Assembly: GCA_003550305.1 (NCBI GenBank) | Contig: QKYT01000634.1 | Span: 15,946 to 42,921 of the forward strand | Reading direction: 5' to 3' | Source: Glomus cerebriforme | Lineage: Eukaryota > Glomeromycota > Glomeromycetes > Glomerales > Glomeraceae | DNA length: 26,976 nt | Part shown: positions 3,135 through 21,734 of the stretch, piece by piece | Layout: every line of letters starts with the position of its first letter | Numbering within the stretch: the stretch's first letter is position 1 | Program-made: the position numbers and the translations under genes | The notes under the pieces: generated by a model | The model's input: the letters and a program-made list of their open reading frames with translations, nothing else | What the model was told of the DNA's origin: nothing | Databases searched by the model: none

Positions 3135-3776
3135 TAATATATTATGTGACAAATTAAATTCCATATTTGGTTAATACTAGAAGGAAATCATGAGTCATTA
3201 ACATTTTTTTTAATNAAAAAATCATTTGTGTGATACATGAAAGTACAAACCAGTATGTGACTTATCATTATTGTATTGTTTGTAGTTTTTGACTCATTTT
3301 ATATTCTTTATATTTTAATTATATAAATATTGTCCTTTTTTTTCAAAATTCCATCTTATTTTTATGAAAAAATTTCAAATATATTCAAATATCCTTAGAG
3401 CTCATCACCTTATTTTAAACCATATTTTATCAGCTAATTATTATCCTAAGTTAATCTCTATTCATTTTAACAACCACTCCTTTAACCTCACATATTCTTT
3501 TAACAACTACTCCCTTTAACCTCACTTCCCCTTACCTTCCTTATACTGCATATAGAGGTCTTTCTCGTATCAGGCAAGGAAACCTGTAATACCAGTCAGT
3601 TAGTCGAGTATCTTCTATCTGGCGGGTTTGGTATTTTATCTTTTTAAATTCCTTTAAACTTCCTCTTCTCTTCCTTATACTGTATATAGAGGTCTTCCTC
3701 ATAACAGGCAAGGAAAGGCCAGTCAGATAGTTGAGTATATCCTATCTCTGGTCTGGTTTAGATTAGAATTCTTTTA
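3135..3776 (-). repeat. Repeat family copy 2, double core, inverted relative to copy 1
   Basis: Read on the minus strand from 3776, this begins gaattctaatctaaacc. It then has a core at 3716-3643, a spacer with ataccaaacccgccagatag, and a second core at 3583-3538. Further on, 3400-3135 matches the stretch after copy 3: both contain gctctaaggatat, then tggaattttg, then gtcacataatatattagaaac. The homology to 19316-19979 therefore spans about 640-660 bp, well beyond the cores. Its far end is set where similarity to copy 3 fades. With copy 1 it brackets the kinase remnant in inverted orientation. Confidence 0.8.
3467..3530 (+). repeat. Two-copy tandem duplication, about 33 bp
   Basis: Two consecutive copies of ttttaacaac(c/t)actcc followed by ctttaacctcac lie side by side, separated by atattc. 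They sit inside repeat copy 2, next to its second core, and are not obvious in copy 3. A local replication-slippage event is the simplest explanation. Confidence 0.75.
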
Positions 3777-6189: not shown

Positions 6190-6207
6190 TAATTTGAAGA
6201 ATAGGGA
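6190..6207 (+). repeat. Target-site duplication, left copy, of the ORF1-only retroelement
   Basis: The 18-bp string taatttgaagaataggga occurs here and, identically, at 16507-16524. Between the two lie the gag-like ORF, its 3' UTR and the nested LINE. Perfect 18-bp identity at the exact ends of a unit with an A-rich 3' end is what target-primed reverse transcription leaves. Confidence 0.8.
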
Positions 6208-7587
6208 AAAACAAAGACATGGAATAAACCAACTTGCCCAGTTAGTGAAAGGAACTGCCAACTACACAAAAGTAAATAGAAACTTTATATATTTAGTAAG
6301 AGGCATAGTAAGTAAATTTTATGAAGAAATACTGGACTATTTACACAACCAGTTAGAAGAGGCATTTGAGCAAAACCAAAGAAAGGATATATTAATTGAT
6401 ACGCTCAAAGTGAAGCTTGCGGTAGCAAAAAAGATGGAAGAATTAATGCCAGCTGCGATAATAACGTCATCATCTANGAATATGGAAATATCCAGTGGAT
6501 ATTCAATAAAAATACCAATAGATGTAGAAGATACATGCTGAGGATCAACATTAACAAATCTAACTAATAACACAGAAGAAAGGATTGTGATCACCAGGGC
6601 TGAAGAATCATATGTATCAAAATAAAATGATCAACAACCAAATAAGGATTATGAAATCATGGAAATTGATAAACTCATAGAAAATGAGAAAATTCTAATG
6701 AAANAACTCCTTTCTGAAAAAGGAAAGTCATCTTCAGAAAAAAGTTCCACCAAACAAAAAAGCAAAGAAAAAAATTTTACTCCTTATATTATTGNGGGAC
6801 ACATGGTACCTCCAAAATTAGAACATCATTTACGTGATATTATGTTATATGATATCCTGGGTAACTGGGATGCAGAAAAATTAACAGGNTAATTNACAGA
6901 GACTTAAGTTTATTAATTAAAGCCACATATCAAAACAAGGAAANTACCAATGTGTAAAAGCTATAGTTGTATTAAGAAGCAGGTTGATCAAAGCACTTAA
7001 ACAAAATGATGTTTGGCAATTAATGATTGGAGGCATTTATGTCAGATACTGTAGTTTTTAAGTGATTGGACTCTTGAAATATGTAAAGAAAGATTTTGAT
7101 ATTAAGCCATAATAAAAGATCTGGCAGATGATGTTGAAAAGAATAACCTATTTTTAAATGCAGAAGTGATGTTTAAACAGGGTTTCAAAGCCATTAAAAT
7201 TGTAAAAGATAACAAAGCAAGAGAAAAGCCATAGGTTTTTTTAAAATATTAAAAAATGTTAATAGAGCATGTCAAATATATTAATGTCAATGGTATTGAT
7301 TATAATTGGATTAGAGATATTCACCAATCTAAAGCTGAGAGAAAAAGTTCAGGCGGCAAGAATAAGGAGAAGAAATCTAATTCAAAAAAGGATTCAACTA
7401 AGAAAGATAATAAAAAGAACTGTCATCAAAGAAAAATAAGAGGAGGAAAGGACAAGATGGTTTTGCGGACATCTTAGAAGGCATAGTTAAAATGTTCAAA
7501 AAAGAGAAAAAGTTGAATCAAGAAAAGGAAAGAAAAATAAATTGCGTGGTGGTAGGGCTTGATTTAGTTTTGGAAAATAAAACTTGA
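6194..7587 (+). pseudogene. Gag-like ORF1 protein (glomeromycotan retroelement family), decayed
   Basis: One plus-strand frame runs from 6194 to about 6890, interrupted by stops at 6539-6541 (TGA) and 6623-6625 (TAA). It then continues through several frameshifts to a TGA near 7585. The N-terminal part is helical and charged (QLAQLVKGTANYTKVNRNF, then SKFYEEILDYLHNQLEEAFE, ending KMEELMPAA). Next comes an acidic and lysine-rich linker. The block around 6800-7060 (PPKLEHHLRDIMLYDILGNW, later YQCVKAIVVLRSRLIKAL) looks like an RRM-type gag fold. It ends in a Lys-rich tail (7330-7450). I recognise this order from abundant glomeromycotan gag-like proteins; a search should confirm. No polymerase follows. 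The first codons overlap the target-site duplication, so the true 5' end of the gene is missing. Several N bases fall inside. Confidence 0.7.
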
Positions 7588-7600
7588 TGTAAATTTGGAC

Positions 7601-7613
7601 TTTTTCTATAATT
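7601..7613 (+). repeat. Target-site duplication, left copy, of the LINE
   Basis: The 13-bp string tttttctataatt is identical to 16121-16133. The left copy abuts the A-rich (here T-rich) 3' tail of the minus-strand LINE; the right copy abuts its 5' end. The T-rich start of the site suits endonuclease nicking on the complementary A/T strand. Confidence 0.85.
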
Positions 7614-7950
7614 TTATTTTTTATTTTTATTTTTATTTTTATGATAGCGTGGATTCGCTACAGGTCTAGAAGTAACAAAAATAGAAAACTATAAGTGACT
7701 ATTTCTAAAATTACTAACGAAGTGTAGCTGAGCCCCAATGTGAGCTGTCTATGCCTAGCGAATACGATAGGTAAAACCAATCCACCCTCTATCTATCTAA
7801 AATAAAAATAGGAGCACTAAGTAAGGGATGAGTAAATGAAGAGAAATCTATACTAGAAATAAAATCAGTAAAAAATTTAAAACTATTATTACTAAAATAA
7901 ATTGATCTATGATGGGACCATGATCCCAAATGCAAAAAATTCGAAGAAGC
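7614..7950 (-). other. LINE 3' UTR with terminal hairpin and (TAAAAA)n tail
   Basis: After the ORF2 stop (7951-7953) the minus strand carries about 300 nt without a sustained frame. It then forms TAGCG-AATCCA-CGCTA (7646-7661), a 5-bp stem with a 6-nt loop. Directly downstream lies a tail of TAAAAA repeats (about 7614-7641) meeting the target-site duplication. A 3' stem-loop next to a short-repeat tail resembles the RT-recognition structures known in some LINEs; the role here is inferred. Confidence 0.65.
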
Positions 7951-8439
7951 CTAAATGAGCCATAACATGTCAGAAAAATTTGAAGGAGCCCGTCGAACTG
8001 GCGGGTCTTGTGTAGGGGTAATCCTAGCTGAGGAAACATTGTTCCGAGGTCCAGAGCGTGAAAATTTTGCACGTTTATCTCTATGTTTGATGTTTAAAGA
8101 TTTTTCCCAATCTATGCGGGCATTGCAATGGATGAGCCACGTGACTTTGCAGAGATCCATAAGTAAATAGTGTAAAAAGTCGAGCAAGTGACGTTGGCGA
8201 GGTTTCTTGGATGTGAAGATAACTTTAAACAAGTCATCAAGACTTTTAGGGATAATTTGATGAGAAAGCAGGATAAGATCCAGATTATGTTTAATCGAGG
8301 AGGTTGAAATATCTGTGAAACATGGGCAGTTTGCTATAGCAGAACGAATATGCTCAAGCAGATTTTGTTGGGTTCCAGTTGTTTATCATAGAGAAATGTA
8401 GCTAAAGAGGCAGCATGTGAGGTGATGAGGTTTACGATA

Positions 8440-9300
8440 AGTGGGGCATAAGAAGGACAAGTGATAATGTGTTCATTGCAATCTAAAAATAGATCACATG
8501 ATGGACAAGGAATATTGGATTTGGGGTAGATATGAGGAAAGTTTCTTTGTAATAAATCGCACGTGGGGAGAGAAAGGTTCAACGATTTAATTTTGTAACT
8601 GATATAGGAGCTTAGATCTGCCGACGTGGTGGTGGAAAAAGGGTTGTAATTTAACCAAAGTTTAGTGAGATTGAAGTCGACAGGAATCTGCTGACATTTG
8701 GAAAAAAGGTGAGAGTTATGAGAACAATTAATTAATTTGTTAAATTGTCGATAATTGAGAATATCTTTCGCCCATTTGCGCACAGGTCGATCGACTGGTC
8801 CTATATTTAGCCACGTAAGAGTGGTGTTATGGCGAGGTAGGTGTTTGAAATTTATATGTAAGGCCTCGGTAAGAAGCGCGCCAGCTTTAGCGAGACCGTC
8901 CGCCGTGTCATTGTAAATGTTGTTTGAATGGGCTTTCACTTTCGTTAATGTGACGTTCAAAGAATTGAATGAAATTATATATTTGATCGTAAGCCAAATC
9001 AAATGATTAGGTAGTTTGAGTAATTTTCGTGTTCCTGTGAGGGGATTAAGGACTTTGTGAAATATACGTATACAACTGGATGAGTCAGTATGTATGTCGA
9101 CAAGACATGAACGCGGACAAATTATTAGAGCCATGAGGATAGCCATAGCTTCTGAGCGTGTCGAAGAGGCATGATGGATAAGTTTTGAACTGAAGGTAAG
9201 TAGGTTGTCAGGATTGGTGGTTTCTACCCAACCTGAACCGGAGGAACATTGAAAAGTACCTATATTGGAAACCAAACCATCAGTGAAAAATGTGAGGTGG
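8440..9300 (-). other. ORF2 RNase H domain and C-terminal zinc motif
   Basis: RNase H signature residues in order: D in FTDG (9279-9281), E in STRSEAMAI (about 9150), D in IHTDSSS (about 9095) and D in NDTADGLAKAG (about 8905). These form the DEDD metal-binding set. The stretch from 9611 to about 8355 is in one open frame. Downstream, CPSCDLFLDCNEHIITC gives C-x2-C-x8-H-x3-C, the zinc motif often found after RNase H in LINEs. RNase H would remove the RNA strand of the cDNA hybrid. Confidence 0.88.
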
Positions 9301-10699
9301 GGTCTATTAAAGACTAGAGAGGACAAGGTTATTAATTTATTAATAGAAATAGAACATCCTAATAAAAGCCGTGAAATAAGGGGCGAGTTCGAGGGAAGTG
9401 GAGTAAAATTATCTGGAATAATAGGGGCCAAGGGTACTGAAACATTGTTATTGTGGGGAACACTGAGTGAATAAGTATAAATGTTAAAGATGAGTACTTT
9501 TAAAGTATTAATAGGTTGTGAGAGAAAAATAAAATGTTTAAAAGGTATATGGGGTAAATTATTAATAAAGGAACGATCCTTTTTGCATGTTTTAATGCGA
9601 TGAAGGTGCAAAGTTGGTGCGACAAAAATGCATTTAGGTCTAATGTCTCGGTGGAAGGGTGTGTGTAATTTACAACCAGGACAAGGAGATAGAATAGGTG
9701 GATATTTTTTTGGAGAATCAAAAATTGAAAAAGATCGGGGAGGATTATGAATCCAATGTTCGATAAAACTAATACTTTAAGAAAACGAGTCATTTTTTTG
9801 TTCAATGGTTCTTCCAAATAAAGCGGAAGACGAGGCTGCATGCCAATAGATTATCCATTCAGATTTTGGTCTGAAATAAAACTCTGATGAGATGGGGGGA
9901 ACATTATGAGAAGGAAGAATGGCTTTGGTAATAACAATGGGTTGTAATAGGCGACGATTGTCACCAATCGTATTTGGTCGATGTAACGTTGGTACCACTG
10001 CAGTTTGCGACCTGGGAGTTGTTTTAGCGGGTTGTGTGGATCTTGATTAATCTCGGACTAAGACTTTACATATTGGCCGTCTATAAGCATAAGTTGATCC
10101 TCAAAAATTAAAGTTCGTTTTTTCCAACTTCTAATGGTAGGAGGGTCAAATGGAAGTTTCTCTATAATAGCCGTTGAACCACCTTTAATAGTAGTGTCGA
10201 AAGATGGGGTGAAAGTACAGCCTATAGAAGAAAATTTTATTAGCGCTTTACTGAATGTGGTAAATGAAGGATATTTGGATTCGTCTATATTATGGAGTCT
10301 ATGTAAATCAGGCCAAAAAGGAAGCCAAAAATCTAATTGTGAATTGATCATGATTTGTCGTGCGATGTGAGCAAGGGTGGGGGAGCTTAAAATATAGCTA
10401 TATAAGGGTAAATGGGCTAAGATCTGGATATTGTTAAGATTTTGTATAAAAGGATTTAAATCAGAATAGATGACATTGTCATTTGTAGTTCGGGAGAGGT
10501 TCAGTTTGTGTTTGAAGAGTTGTTTAAGGGGTTTCATAATTTGATTTAATGTTGATTCACTAAGAAAAGTGAAGTTCATCATGTATTCTAGTTTCGGCAG
10601 AATCACTTTGTTAATAATATAGGTGGCGTGGTCGTGCGTAATGCATTTTTTCCTAAGAAGGAAGGCGTTGTATGATACAACTGATTTCATGTATGAAAT

Positions 10700-11700
10700 A
10701 GTTCCTTTGTCAATGTTGTTTGCATTAATATAGTAGCCTAAAATGCGTTCAGAGCATGCCTATATGGACTTCAGTTGTGATATTATTAATGTTTAGTTGA
10801 ACCGTTTTGTTGTGATAGGAGCGGTTATTGGTGAGAAGTTTGTATTTGTCGATGTTAATTTTGATTTTGGCGAAAGCATAAAATCTGTTGGCAATGGTGA
10901 AGAGTGATTGTAAATGGTCTAATGAATGACTAAACCAAGTGGTGTCGTCTAGGTAACCTATCACAGATAGGTTGTAAGATAAAGTTTGGTGAGATGCGGG
11001 GTTTAAAACATCCTTTAATTTTGTGGTGTTAATGGTCAGTTGATACGGTAGACAATTGATCATGGTGAACATAGGATCATAATATATGATCCATAAAAGT
11101 GGGGAGATTACTTCTCCTTGGTCAATACCGAATCGTATGTCATATAATTTTGATAGGCCATTATGTAAAATAATTTTGTTAGATCTGTTTGTGAAAAGGT
11201 TAATTATATTTGTGACAAAATCTAAAGGGATTTTGAGATGGAGCATAGCTATTTTGAGTAAATTAATGTCGACGCGGTCGTAGGCTTTGGATAGGTCCTG
11301 TAGGCCTATCTATAAGGGTTCCCGTTTATTTAGGTTAAAATGTTCTATTATGTGCTTGATATGGATTATTGGTTCGATCGTAGAGTGTCCTAAAAGGCTG
11401 GCTTGGTTGTTGTGTTCTAGAATTGGATGTGAGGATAGTATAATGTTAAGTCTGGTGGTTAATATTTTGACCAGGAGTTTACAGGTGGTTTCTAACAGGA
11501 TTATAGGTCTCGTATTATTAATCTGGCAATTCCAATCTTTTGGTTTAGGGATAGGGAAGAGCAATGCATCGTTCCATTCTTTAGGGTAAATATGGTGAGT
11601 TAATATAATGTTGAAAAAATCAACTAGGAATTGTTTAGTGTGGGTGTCCAGATGTTTGATATCTTCGTAAATGATACCGGAAGGTCCACTGGCTTTGTTA
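10700..11700 (-). other. ORF2 reverse transcriptase domain
   Basis: Recognisable blocks: NKASGPSGI (fingers, about 11690), TRPIILLETTCKLLVKIL, QASLLGHST, motif A with LSKAYDRVD (about 11290-11265, catalytic D), GIDQGEVISPLLW (about 11125-11090), and motif C with YLDD at 10944-10955 (catalytic Asp pair). A TAG at 11310-11312 sits just before motif A in unchanged frame. The spot reads like a lost Trp or Gln codon. A frameshift near 10753 begins the thumb region, where SERILGYYINANN resumes. Confidence 0.9.
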
Positions 11701-12699
11701 TTTGGCAAAGATAACATTGTGTCTTGTAGTTCTGTTAGGGTGATGGGGTCCATTTTGCGATTAAACCAATCAGTTTGGATATGAGGTTTTGGTGTGTAAA
11801 TATCTGCCCACTCTGGAGGTAGGTCTTGGTAAGTATCAGCAGTACATGGAGTTTCTTCTGATGTGTTTCCTAAATTTTGGAAATGATCGATGGTATGTTG
11901 TTCGATTTTATCGGGGTCAAGTGTTAGTTCTTCTGTATTGTCTTCGTGTGTAATGATAAGTCGGTCTAGCATAATACGTCTCGGTTTGTGGTTAAGTATT
12001 GAATTAATCATTCTACGTTGATTAAATTTTAAATTCTCATTTCTGATATTAATAAATCTATTAATTTGATTAATATTATGTTTTTCGGTAAGGTGTTGTC
12101 TGAGATTTTGTAGAAGAATTATTAATGATTTTAAAAAGGATTTGATCGTTGCGTAATTATGGACTGTGATAGTGCTGGGTAGAAGTGGAGATTTAATTTG
12201 GTAAAGGTTGCTAATTTTGCTTATATGGAATCTGTGTTTAGACCATTTGGACCAATAAGATTTCCAGTCCTCTTCGTTGGGTGTATTGTCAGTTGTAGGA
12301 GATATATAAAATTTTATATATTTGGTTTGAAATTTTTGAGTTATAGAAGAAATTAGGCTAATATTATTATTGAGTTGGCGAATGTTTAGTGGTAAGTATG
12401 AGTGGCCTTTATCTACTCGTGAGAGCTTGGGGATATGTTCTTGTTTGTTATGGTTGATGATATATTTAAGGTCGTCCCATAATCTATTAATATAAGAGGT
12501 AAGACGAGTATGTGAAGAGGGAATGTTAAGCGGGAGAGTAAATAGCGATTTAGAACTAAGTTCTGTGTTAGTTTGATATATGAGCCATTTGTGTTTGTCC
12601 ATGCATTTGTAATTGAATTTAGGTTCGTTGGAATTATTAAGAGTATTGTTGTGGTGTATAGAGTTATGATTTAGAAAAAATTGTATATCGAATAGGAGG

Positions 12700-13430
12700 C
12701 TAATAGCTTTGTGGTCTGTGTAAAAGTAATACGGTTGAATGTTAGTCTCCATAGTACCTAAACTATGTTCAGTTAAAGTTTTGTTTGCGAAAATTAAATC
12801 GATGCGTCGATTAGGCGGGGACGTGTCATTGATAGGCCATGTTGGTTTAGGGGTTTGATTATGAAAAGCGATAACATCTTTTAGTGCATGAGATTTTAAA
12901 ATACTAAAAATGTTGCTTTTCTAGGAAGGAGGTTTATTGGTTTTTTTGGTTTTGGTGTCTTTGGGATCAATGTTGAAGTCGCCAAGTATAAGTTGTTTAG
13001 ATTTTTTCTTGCTGTTGGATAATAGTATGTTGTTTAGATGATTGTTACATTTGATAGTTAATTGTTTGTGTGTGTTAGAATCAGATGCTGGTAGATAGAT
13101 TATTGAAACGTTGATCCACAGTTTATGTTTGAAACCTAAGTCGATAGATAAAATTCTTCCATTAAAAGTAGTGGTTCGTTGGATGTGTTTGTGAAGGTGC
13201 GTCAAAATTATGACGCTACATCCTGAGCCTTTGTTATTACCTGAGTCATCGTGGTATATATAATATTTAGTTTTTGTTCTATTAATGGGTATATATTTAT
13301 TAGTAGAAGCGTTTAAATTGCCGTGTAGACCAGTTTCAACCAGTCCTAGTAAAAAGAAGTTTTCTTTATCGAAGAAATCTAGGATGCCATCGAGTTTTGA
13401 GTTGAATCCTCCATGAATATTGATTACTCC
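12700..13430 (-). other. ORF2 endonuclease domain (APE/exonuclease-phosphatase fold), split by a TAG
   Basis: Expected active-site residues are all present, numbered from the ATG at 13532: N38 (VINIHGG), E66 (GLVETG), Y146 (SIIYLPAS), D185 and N187 (LGDFNID), then after the stop RRIDLIF, and D273-H274 (YTDHKAI). The only lesion is the TAG at codon 204 between GDFN and the RRIDLIF block; the reading frame is the same on both sides. This domain makes the first nick in target-primed reverse transcription. Confidence 0.85.
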
Positions 13431-13784
13431 TATTTTAATAAAGTCCTCTATAGGTGAGGAATGTATGTTGGTTAATTTTTTAATAGTAGTTCTTTTGTCC
13501 AAGTTTGCGTTTGAAGTTGTATTTGAGTCCATTGTGGGAAATATTCTTTTTGTTTCTATGTAAAAGTTGAAAGTAAAGATTAAAGTTTTGCAATTTGATA
13601 AAGTTGTTTGATTATGTAACAAGTAATTTGATATGTTTAAAAGTTAGTTTTGTTTGGTTAGTAAAATTTTGAGATAGAAGTTAAATTTGTTGTTGTTTTT
13701 GAAGTAAAAAAGAATTTATAAGATTTTATATAACAGTATTTAGATATTGATTAGTATATATTGAATGGTTGTTGGGTTAAGTAT

Positions 13785-16022
13785 TTAAGATGTCCATTTT
13801 CTGAGGGGATTGAAATTCCATTGGGATGTAGATGTTTCGCCGAGTCTACTTGAGGTTTCGTAGGGGTCTTGAAGGCTTTCCGTGAGAAATGAAGAATCTT
13901 CGTAATTTATGTTTTCCATATATTTTGATTCAGTATCGTTAATAAGGTGTTTTGGAGGGTTAATATTAAGTGAATATTTGTTAGTAGTTGTTTCTTTTCC
14001 AGTGTTGTCGTCTATTATAGATTCGATTGTTTTTAGGCTTCCTATATCTGAAAACGAGTCGATTTGAGGGTTAAAGTTATATTTATTAGTAGTTTTGTTA
14101 AAGGGTGTTGGGTTTATTTTTTCTTTTTTCCTTCTATACTGGGTGTCGTGTTTGTTTGCAGGTTGAATTGCTAGTACGTTCTGATTAAGTTCTTCAGTTC
14201 TGGTAATAACTATGTCAACTTTAGTATTGGTCTGCGAGATTTTTTCTTTATTATCGAGTACGTTTTTTTTGATATCGGTAATATCTTTTTGAATCGTTTG
14301 AAGAGCGTTGATTTTTTGGAGCGATTGTTGTAGTAACGATTTAAGTTCTGCATTTTCTTTTAAAATTTGTTGCAGTAGAATGTCATTCTGGTTTTGAGAC
14401 TGGTAAACCTTTTTTTGAGTATCTTTTGTTTGGGGTTGAGCATTGGTCTTGGACTGTTTGTGTTGTTGATGACGTTTAGTAGTGTTAAGGGGGTGTTTGA
14501 ATAAGAGACTTGAATTTCGAGTTGAATTGTGTAATAGTAGTCTATTGTTGTTGTTGGTTTGATTCAGTTTATCCGTTGTAGGTCCCATGTTAGCCGAGCA
14601 CATTTTGAAGTCATGTGAAGGGGATCCACAAATGGTACAGTGTTTCAATTTTGGATTCATAATGTAAATGTTGTGGTTGTTGATGTTAAGGGTTTTATTT
14701 TTACTGACGAAGTCTTTTTGTGTGATGTAGATGTAAGCTGATCTAGTGAGTCGTCTTCTGTCAGTTGGTACGAAGGTACAAGTTTTGGCATGAATTTTGT
14801 TAAGAAGAGGTTGTAGAGACTTTAATGTGCTGTTTATCAGTAAGCCAGTTAATTTATATTGATATGTAGTACGTTCAGTGTAGGCTATACTCTTGATTTC
14901 GTTTGGTAGTATTCTAATGTTGAAATCGCCTATTGTTAAAGACCATATGTTTTCGGTGACGATTTTTTGAACCGCTGATTGGTTTTCGAATTCGATTTTT
15001 AGTTGCTTGAAAAAGGAAGGTTTAGATTTTCTAGAGGATGGTTTAGTGACTTGTTTGCTATTAAAGCTTTTTGGTTCATAGAAATGGATGATTGGTCCGA
15101 TTTCTTTTGAGACCGTTTCTAAGATAATCAAATTATAAATGTGTTTAGGGATATCAACAAGTTTAACAGTTTTGTTGTATCTGGTTTCTAAAATGGAAGT
15201 AATGATTTGATCGAGGTATTGTGGTTCGTAATTGTAAAACTGGGTATTGAATTTACTAATATAGATGTTGTGTAAGCAGTTACGTTCAGCTTCATCGTAA
15301 AATGCTATTTTGACGATTTTTACTCTGTAGCAATTTTGTATACCCATGTAGCCTCTAAAGTTTTGGTTGTTAAGGAAGTGGCGTAAGATTTCCATTTAGA
15401 TTTTATGAATTGAGTTGTACGGGAAGTCATTGAGTATTGCGAATGACAGATGAAATTCAGTATTGTCATTTATGGTAAGATTTTCTGTGTCTGATATGGA
15501 AGTTATATTATTTGCATCATAGAAGTCACTGTTGATTGGTTGTTGGTATGGTGTGTGATGATCAACATTAGGGGGCGATTGTAAAAACGTGTTGAATGAA
15601 TTTTCATTGTTGATAATGTTGTTTGTGTCATGTAGGACATTTTTTCCTTTGTCTGAAGCATGAATGGAATGTGCTAGATTCTGGTAAGGCTTAGTAACAG
15701 CCGGTAACGAAGAAGACGAAGAGGATTGTTGGGATAAGTTGTTCGTTTCAATAGTGTTACCCATAATAATATCTCTATCGGATATATCGATTGTAGTAGA
15801 AATGACTGTAGTATTTTCTATGGTATCATTACTTTTATGTGTTTGTAAGGTGTTATTTGTTGTTGTTGGCGGTGGGCCATAAGTATCTTGGATTATAACT
15901 TGTTCGTTTTCTAAATTTGTATTTTTTATTTGAGGGTTTTCAGCGTTGTTAGCGATAGTTTGGCTTCTTGTAACTCTTTTTAGGGTTCCGGTAGAACTCT
16001 TGTTGGAGCGGACCGAGCTCAT
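13785..16022 (-). pseudogene. LINE ORF1 protein with CCHC zinc knuckle and coiled coil
   Basis: The frame is continuous from ATG 16022 (MSSVRSNK) to a stop at 13785-13787, 745 codons, interrupted once by TAA at 15396-15398. That TAA is followed at once by ATG (MEILRHFL). Residues 1-208 are S/T/N-rich and probably disordered. The second part has a conserved-looking block (MEILRHFLNNQNFRGY, then FYDEAERN). It also has a zinc knuckle C-T-I-C-x4-H-x4-C (14598-14639) and then a Q/N/K heptad-rich helix (about 14390-14180) suited to coiled-coil trimerisation. ORF1 proteins coat the element RNA. I treat the TAA as a nonsense mutation because frame and product continue; two natural ORFs are the alternative. 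ORF2 follows after a gap of about 250 nt. Confidence 0.85.
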
Positions 16023-16120
16023 GTTGTAGAAAGTTTATGTTAATAAAAAATTTTTTATTAAAGTGTGTCTATGTTTTCTACTAATTTGCTGCGGGATTTT
16101 AATAAATTTTTTGAGTTCAT
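16023..16120 (-). other. LINE 5' UTR
   Basis: The 98 nt between the 5' target-site boundary and the ORF1 ATG are A/T-rich on the minus strand and begin atgaactcaaaaaattt. Such a short leader may mean slight 5' truncation, or a promoter that extends into ORF1. No clear promoter element is visible. Confidence 0.6.
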
Positions 16121-16133
16121 TTTTTCTATAATT
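16121..16133 (+). repeat. Target-site duplication, right copy, of the LINE
   Basis: The sequence tttttctataatt is identical to 7601-7613. Beyond it (cgatcatgtatatag) the 3' UTR of the interrupted outer element resumes. Confidence 0.85.
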
Positions 16134-16506
16134 CGATCATGTATATAGTTTTTTGTTTACTTCTATTCCTGTCACGTGATTTATAGGAAAGCAGAGTAGA
16201 GTTAGTATTTATATTTAGGGATAAAATGGGAGGGTTAGAATTAGTCTTGAATTGTCATGGTCTACTTTCTCACCACGTAGAATAATAGGTAAGTATTTAG
16301 GTAAGTATTTATCAGTCATACTATCAGGTTAGTAATAGTGGTTAAATATCTGGTTGGCAGTTATCCTTAATGGATAGATGTTGACTAGATGATTAGATTA
16401 GTTTAGGTACCTTTCTGTAATATCTTTATAATGTAATTACATAGCTCTCATTTGACTATTCTTACATAATTAGAAGTGGGGTGTATAAAGATACAAAGTA
16501 AATAAA
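16134..16506 (+). other. 3' UTR and A-rich end of the ORF1-only retroelement
   Basis: This stretch has no gene in it. It is less A/T-biased than the DNA beyond 16530. It holds a tandem duplication of aggtaagtattt (about 16290-16314), a tcacgtgatttata motif (16172-16185), and ends in aaagtaaataaa just before the 18-bp duplication. By position it continues the sequence interrupted at 7613. Confidence 0.6.
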
Positions 16507-16524
16507 TAATTTGAAGAATAGGGA
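16507..16524 (+). repeat. Target-site duplication, right copy, of the ORF1-only retroelement
   Basis: Identical to 6190-6207 over 18 bp. A shorter partial copy (aataatttgaag) recurs at about 16536-16547, so a chance local repeat should be excluded. The exact placement next to an A-rich 3' end favours a duplication. Confidence 0.75.
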
Positions 16525-20722: not shown

Positions 20723-21734
20723 ATGTCTGATTTAACAAAGGCTGAATGCAACCAAATTATTGGCCTTTTTAAGGGTGGTGTTACAAAAGCAAATATTATT
20801 AAAATGCTTGGCTTTTCTAAAACCACAGTTCTCTGAACTATTTAAAACTCTTGTGAAGGAAAAAGTCTTAAAAATCAGCCACAAAGTGGCCGCCCAAGAC
20901 TTTTAAATTGTGAACACCAAAAAGCACTAAAAAAAATTGTTAAAGCTGATAGTCACCAATCAGCTGAACAAATAAAGAACAAATTTCAAGAAAAAACTGA
21001 AATTCAAGTTTCTACTAGGACAATAAGAAGAAATTTGCATGAGCTTAATATTTTTTCTCATATTCCAGCATGCAAACCTCTTCTTAGTAATAAACAAAGA
21101 GAAAATCACTTAACCTGGTGTATTGAAAAAAAAGACTGGTCTGTTAGAAAATGGAAGTCAGTTATCTGGAGTGATGAGAGTCACTTTACAATTTTTAAAA
21201 ATGATGGTTCAGGTCATGTTTGGAGAACTCCTGGAACACGATTCAATATTAAAAATATGGTTCCTACAGTAAAACATGGTGGTGGAGGTGTGATGATGTA
21301 AAATTGTTTTTCAGGGAAAGGATTGGGACCACTAGTAAAAGTTGATGGAAAAATGAAACATCATAATTATATTCAAATACTTGAATCACATTTACTTCCA
21401 TTAATTAATAATAATTTTAATGGAAAAAATTATTTATTCCAAGATGACAATACCCCAGTTCACACTGCTAAAAATATTAAAAAATGGATTGAAGCAAAAA
21501 AAAATAAAAATTTTGGAAAATTAGCTGAGTCAGTCATCTGACTTGAATCCCATTGAACATTCATGGTCAGAGCTGAAAAGGCACATTAGAAAACATCCCA
21601 GACCTGCAAAAAATGTGAAGGAATTGGAGCATGCTTTGCATGAAAAATGGGATAAAATTCTGAAGTACACTTTAACAAATTTAATTGAAAGCATACCACG
21701 CCAGATAAAGGCGTGTATTAAGAATAATGGCTGA
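20723..21734 (+). pseudogene. Tc1-like transposase, broken
   Basis: The ATG at 20723 (MSDLTKAECNQIIGLFKGG) opens the first helix-turn-helix. After stops TGA 20834-20836 and TAA 20843-20845 the same frame continues with the GRPR linker (SGRPRLL, about 20890) and the second HTH. The catalytic core follows: VIWSDES with the first Asp (about 21165), VKHGGGGVMM then TAA 21299-21301, NCFSGKGLGP, and LFQDDNTPVH with the second Asp (21446-21448). A frameshift in the A-run near 21497-21510 moves to the +1 frame, which carries SSDLNPIEHSW with the Glu at 21555-21557, and ends at TGA 21732-21734. Total of about 337 codons matches the family's usual 340. D2 to E spacing is about 35 residues, depending on how the indel is repaired, close to DD34E. 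It would cut and paste the element via its inverted repeats. Confidence 0.9.

Follow-up and report, generated by a model that had tools for sequence, protein, structure and literature searches.

A LINE nested antisense in an RRM-protein-only retroelement of Glomus cerebriforme points to a likely insertion hotspot at a 3'UTR hairpin

Introduction

SINE/LINE pairs, such as UnaL2 and those of the CR1/L2 type, have a 3' stem-loop in common, and the LINE Tx1L targets the Tx1D transposon. To our knowledge, it is an open question what guides non-site-specific LINEs to their targets apart from a short T-rich word. Among non-autonomous retroelements, the mammalian HAL1 (half-L1) is described as encoding an ORF1-type protein only (PMC5753468). 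As to the endonucleases, the human L1 enzyme is described in PMC12809410 as cutting hairpin substrates, faster near hairpin bubbles, with no cut of single-stranded DNA and essentially none of pyrimidine-pyrimidine mismatches, and the R2 protein is reported to cleave branched DNA (PMC6895275). The fungal group concerned here is characterized, in a paper on R. irregularis, by many unclassified repeats (PMC11075540).

Herein, we describe a pair of nested retroelements in a 26,976-nucleotide stretch of the Glomus (Rhizophagus) cerebriforme genome (C774:15946-42921), referred to as the window. We conclude that they are ordinary nested retroelements exposing what is likely an unusual insertion hotspot. 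A search of titles and abstract openings, with most subscription papers outside its scope, found no description of the outer family or of such a hotspot, which is not proof of absence.

Results

Direct repeats and order of insertion

As summarized in Table 1, the window carries direct repeats of 13 bp and 18 bp, and the two copies of each were identical, as in the first-pass annotation, which had read them as two exact target-site duplications (TSDs). The 18-bp word TAATTTGAAGAATAGGGA bounds 6208-16506 exactly. That it might be a common repeat, a possibility raised in the annotation itself, was not borne out, because only four copies (three forward and one reverse) were present in the 112.5 Mb searched, two of them being the window pair; the 18-mer read backwards as a control gave 0 occurrences in the 112.5-Mb assembly. 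The 13-bp word TTTTTCTATAATT bounds 7614-16120, and since the adjoining bases are unlike on both sides (c/t before and t/c after), this duplication is exactly 13 bp long.

The annotation had further proposed that the outer element was inserted first and the LINE second, so that removal of the LINE would rejoin the 3'UTR of the outer element, and had suggested looking for the empty junction in paralogues. Such an uninterrupted copy was found on C751 (L070), which aligned to window positions 6223-7632 and then, without a break, to 16119-16162 and 16412-16506. Its 3'UTR is continuous over the predicted site, and the two pieces are thus contiguous in a copy without the LINE, so that the proposed order stands. 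In C146, both 3'UTR pieces also adjoin, but 7523-7613 and 16134-16290 are absent; as this deletion spans the junction, the copy speaks neither for nor against an exact empty junction. It is nearly certain that the window holds an antisense LINE with a 13-bp TSD within an older non-autonomous retroelement having its own 18-bp TSD.

Table 1. Features of the nested insertion, in window coordinates
Feature	Position	Strand	Remarks
Outer TSD, left copy (18 bp)	6190..6207	+	Exact repeat
Outer retroelement, 5'-truncated, decayed ORF	6208..7600	+	Starts at about codon 41-48 of a ~495-codon ORF; aligned frame with 12 stops; found by tblastn and by genome protein search
Inner TSD, left copy (13 bp)	7601..7613	+	T5, left half of the hairpin inner stem (CTATA, 7606-7610) and start of the loop
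LINE, 8507 bp, antisense to the outer element	7614..16120	-	Repeated TAAAAA tail at about 7614-7642 (left side, A-rich)
LINE ORF2, in pieces (stops, frame shifts)	8334..13643	-	Endonuclease-like, 12921-13643; RT, 10749-11309; RNase H, 8334-9776
LINE ORF1, one stop at 15396-15398	13785..16034	-	CX2CX4HX4C knuckle read by eye; homologues found
Inner TSD, right copy (13 bp)	16121..16133	+	Exact repeat
Right half of the interrupted hairpin	16134..16163	+	TATAG, 16144-16148; T6, 16149-16154; GTTTA, 16155-16159
Outer element 3'UTR, continued	16164..16506	+	5' truncation of C868, C1111 and C755 falls at the base corresponding to 16164/16165
Terminal 3' stem-loop with A-rich tail, in common with an autonomous LINE (C480)	16422..16506	+	Alignment, covariation
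Outer TSD, right copy (18 bp)	16507..16524	+	Exact repeat

The inner LINE

The inner element is a LINE (non-LTR retrotransposon), combining a reverse transcriptase (RT) and an endonuclease-like match with an A-rich repeat tail and a TSD. Its ORF2 matched RVT_1 (E 5.9e-12) and RNase_H (E 6.8e-11), as well as Exo_endo_phos at E 1.7e-4 with 21.8 bits, under the cut-off of 24.5, and the stops in both frames and frame shifts in ORF2 indicate that the copy is not intact.

A genome search with the 3' end of this LINE gave 37 matches, one of them the query itself. The 25 loci read yielded 23 distinct 3' flanks, L067 stopping before the 3' end and L049 having the same flank as L056. Three of the 23 lay in the hairpin described below (the window, C826 and C66, the last a duplicate of C826), two of them independent, and the remainder were unrelated DNA in which no outer element was recognized. 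A site-specific LINE of the Tx1L or R2 type would have essentially all of its copies at one target, and the window LINE was thus not classed as such. A general preference of the family for hairpins was likewise set aside, the signal at 24 flanks, among which two pairs were duplicates, being marginal (KS p 0.049).

Elsewhere in the window, a Tc1/mariner-like transposase remnant (HTH_Tnp_Tc3_2) lies at 20846-21301 (+) and a 34-bp tandem repeat in two copies at 3459-3525. Close to their 5' ends, outer elements and window-type LINEs have the short motif CCGCAG(T/C)A in common (L016, L018, L035-L038).

The outer family and its 3' end

The outer family unit is 1.95 kb in length and encodes a single RRM-type protein of ~475-495 aa. 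The outer copy had been called ORF1-only, which agrees with the family having one protein and with no RT being seen in the elements read; homology of that protein to LINE ORF1s, in turn, was not detectable beyond RRM-like folds. The outer ORF gave no tblastn match at E 10 in the C480 LINE stretch, and its hhalign probability against the ORF1 of window-type LINEs was 2.6%. No L1 ORF1p structures were noticed among the best 50 matches listed per fold search, and a Pfam search with outer-family proteins gave nothing above the cut-off. The AlphaFold model had a mean pLDDT of 42, with residues 331-410 at 59-79 per block, and, as the model is poor overall, the fold reading is limited to the RRM part.

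The family accounted for at least 95 match rows in the genome, fragments being counted separately and 90 of 235 candidates scored. The protein of the C883 copy was 100% identical to Glomus cerebriforme C1645_863992, and the 17 homologues among the matches listed were all from Glomus cerebriforme (7989 candidates sharing most words scored). Flanking repeats of 13 and 16 bp were also recognized by eye around the C883 and C919 copies. With TSDs, 5' truncation, an A-rich end and no RT of its own, the outer unit has the features of a non-autonomous, LINE-mobilized element.

The last ~92 bp of the outer element agreed with the end of the autonomous C480 LINE at 80% over 92 columns. In the latter, an ORF1-like frame accompanies a frame of 1771 codons that contains endonuclease and RT domains, and no match to the outer protein was found in the 6.6 kb read there. 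An RT was located 2452-2495 bp upstream of the common tail, on the same strand, in at least five of 35 tail matches (C480, C1115, C928, C296 and C284), five being a lower bound with 150 of 301 RT candidates scored. In the terminal stem-loop, six of 28 pairs were kept by changes on both sides among 10 sequences. Since its 3' end matches that of an autonomous LINE without the outer protein, the outer element was probably moved in trans by LINE machinery. We infer, with good support, that the family consists of retroelements coding for an RRM protein only and mobilized in trans, the window subfamily by a LINE family with the same 3'-terminal stem-loop. Other outer subfamilies carry different 3' ends, including the C883- and C919-type tails, for which no partner LINEs were seen among the 150 of 301 RT candidates scored. 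A distant subfamily (L032, L042) resembles the window LINE in having terminal TAAAAA repeats, which suggests a different partner LINE.

The interrupted hairpin

The insertion point lies within a 42-bp hairpin of the outer 3'UTR that shows compensatory changes. In C883 and similar copies, a T5/T6 internal loop separates its 9-bp stem from a 5-bp stem that is closed by a 3-base loop. We examined 19 hairpin loci, from which the duplicates C66 (of C826) and C763 (of C788), the truncated copies C949, C281, C868, C1111 and C755, and the deleted C146 were excluded. Covariation was assessed at 14 of the 19 (14 sequences, 10 distinct), omitting the interrupted window, C612 and C788 as well as C751 and C826. 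Pairing was retained in 95.4% of cells vs. 39.7-51.9% when the partners were slid by 1-3 columns. Five of the 14 pairs were changed on both sides, a count reached by two of 500 shuffles, and the covariation score was reached by none of the 500, with the caveat that related sequences can exceed shuffles even without structure; the count of double-changed pairs is weak by itself, because the slid structures gave 0 to 4. The outer stem is weak in the subfamily of the window, and in minimum-energy folds of the empty sites the hairpin was absent from the window and C751 copies and partial in C612. An Rfam search of the window gave nothing at the gathering score.

Five other outer copies start at or in the hairpin. 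The starts of C868, C1111 and C755 coincide at a single base immediately 3' of the hairpin, that of C949 falls within the loop and that of C281 within the T-run on the right; such starts would fit stalling of reverse transcription there. Further truncated copies (C1, C969, C418, C275 and C156) start outside the hairpin. At L086 (C139:12721), 22 of 22 bases of the right arm were found, the 601 bases read there containing nothing else that matches the outer element.

Recurrent insertion at the hairpin

Retroelements were present at four of the 19 hairpin loci, namely the window, C612, C826 (with two) and C1002, amounting to five events, all antisense, and 14 loci were uninterrupted (C751, C883, C919, C634, C598, C314, C119, C516, C888, C941, C850, C378, C492 and C948). 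Four of 19 is the rate among loci read at the 3'UTR, out of the 95 outer match rows, and not a genome-wide one. At C612, a different LINE occupies the hairpin at the same place and in the same orientation as in the window, with its own 15-bp TSD. Its RT was 50% and 48% identical to that of the window LINE over two pieces, and other genomic copies were much closer to the latter, at 82-84% (C940, C86, C699 and C927), 71% (C10) and 67% (C260), and further copies reached 52-56% (150 of 301 candidates scored). Given these identities, the window and C612 insertions appear to be independent, separate hits. C826 contains a tandem of two different LINE fragments, each of them antisense, and the left-arm target TGAAATAAACTTT is present there three times; the same arrangement, about 90% identical and with a common flank, recurs at C66, which was taken as a duplicate of C826. 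At C1002, a 16-bp duplication of the left arm encloses DNA with an outer-type frame on the opposite strand, this insert being read at its two ends, and a 5' inversion such as twin priming gives was observed. The nick positions were 8-9 nt apart between loci.

The hairpin of C788 is split at a TA by a TIR element (DNA transposon). This element (L083 and L085; L087 at C763), whose ends are TCAGTCAGTGGAAATGTCAG, is flanked within the hairpin by a duplicated TA, and the right flank at C763 is near-identical. Insertions elsewhere in outer copies were TIR-like by eye (C598, C948 and C826) or unclassified (C612, about 280 bp), and no LINE insertion away from the hairpin was recognized in a non-exhaustive reading of outer copies. 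Overall, the hairpin is likely a recurrent hotspot for retroelement insertion.

Discussion

Proposed mechanism and alternatives

In the mechanism that we propose, with less certainty than the nesting and the mobilization in trans, LINE-type endonucleases would nick the sense strand of the outer element at the T-rich 3'UTR hairpin, after AAACTTTTT or in the apical loop, and the T-rich 3' end at the nick would prime on the A-rich tail of the incoming LINE. Because the sense strand is T-rich on both arms, such a nick would offer a primer for A-rich tails, and the insertions would be antisense and would recur across outer copies and from different LINE families. Taken as a whole, i.e., a nested LINE, an outer family mobilized in trans, and LINE endonuclease nicking at the hairpin with tail priming, this explanation seems to us quite probable. 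Considerably more tentative, and in our judgment rather doubtful, is the idea that unrelated LINEs use the conserved hairpin, in the form of a DNA cruciform or of a stalled strand, as their landing pad, so that insertion would be guided by structure and biased in strand with no strict target sequence. The poor hairpin in the window's subfamily and the 8-9 nt differences in nick position count against a structural cause, and so does the behavior of the human L1 endonuclease, by which single strands were not cut and pyrimidine-pyrimidine mismatches essentially not (PMC12809410).

The simplest alternative is that LINE endonucleases merely nick T-runs and meet those of the hairpin by chance. The priming ends are indeed T-rich, and A+T makes up roughly 71-81% per kb of the window outside the LINE. 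The site itself is rich in T, since of the 26 T5+ tracts counted in the C883 element three lie in or at the hairpin. However, 18 of these tracts belong to the opposite strand, and still every insertion seen is antisense; the chance of three further loci falling in one tract would be about 6e-5 with equal tract use, or about 0.0015 with the three hairpin tracts taken as one target, and no LINE was recognized elsewhere in the outer copies read non-exhaustively. A plain T-tract preference thus appears unlikely. From the same tract counts, a T-run by itself would seem insufficient, to which a structural cue would be the natural, if less certain, addition, given the cleavage of branched DNA by R2 (PMC6895275) and of hairpin substrates by the human L1 endonuclease (PMC12809410). 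The LINE might instead have entered during the outer element's own insertion, with the hairpin stalling second-strand synthesis and the T-rich 3' end left by the stall serving as primer on a LINE RNA. This would account for the antisense orientation and the T-rich sense-strand primer, and other copies that are 5'-truncated at the hairpin suggest polymerase stalling, but stalling does not alone yield a 13-16 bp duplication, and we hold this route to be decidedly unlikely.

The recurrence could also be only apparent, had one ancestral LINE insertion been copied as a composite, with the window and C612 as its descendants. The two agree in site and orientation, and where alignable their outer copies are 69-73% and their LINEs 66-68% identical; composite duplication does occur, as C826 and C66 demonstrate. 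Nevertheless, many copies at other loci resemble the window LINE more closely than the C612 LINE does, and the paired TSD copies agree within each locus and differ between loci, which makes common descent very improbable. The remaining alternative concerns the outer unit, which, encoding an RRM protein with no RT seen, might be taken for a retrocopy of an ordinary host gene rather than a mobile element. Against this stand its abundance in the genome as counted above, the presence of full-length copies, flanked by repeats of their own and similar to one another at the 5' as well as the 3' end, and its LINE-type 3' end, and a host-gene origin is in our view most improbable of all. The preferred reading remains LINE endonuclease nicking at the T-rich hairpin of an outer family mobilized in trans, and the shape of DNA or RNA may contribute to the choice of insertion site.

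Comparison with known systems

The occurrence of more than one LINE family at one conserved hairpin, in the same orientation and with empty sites in the same genome, provides a natural and testable case of target choice, and the outer family is a clear example of a protein-coding parasite carrying a LINE 3' end. Like HAL1, the outer element is non-autonomous, with one protein and no RT, but its ORF lacks detectable homology to the ORF1 of either the partner or the window LINE, the link being the common 3' end. In this respect it resembles the SINE/LINE pairs, having a terminal stem-loop and tail common to an autonomous LINE, with covariation, and differs from them in its long protein-coding ORF and its separate 3'UTR hairpin. 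The results on structured DNA with the R2 and human L1 endonucleases were obtained in vitro and in clades other than that of the window LINE. As with Tx1L in Tx1D, the host of the LINE is itself a mobile element that is entered at a recurrent site; here, in contrast, the site is used by more than one LINE family and by an outer-type element, and the window LINE family resides mostly elsewhere.
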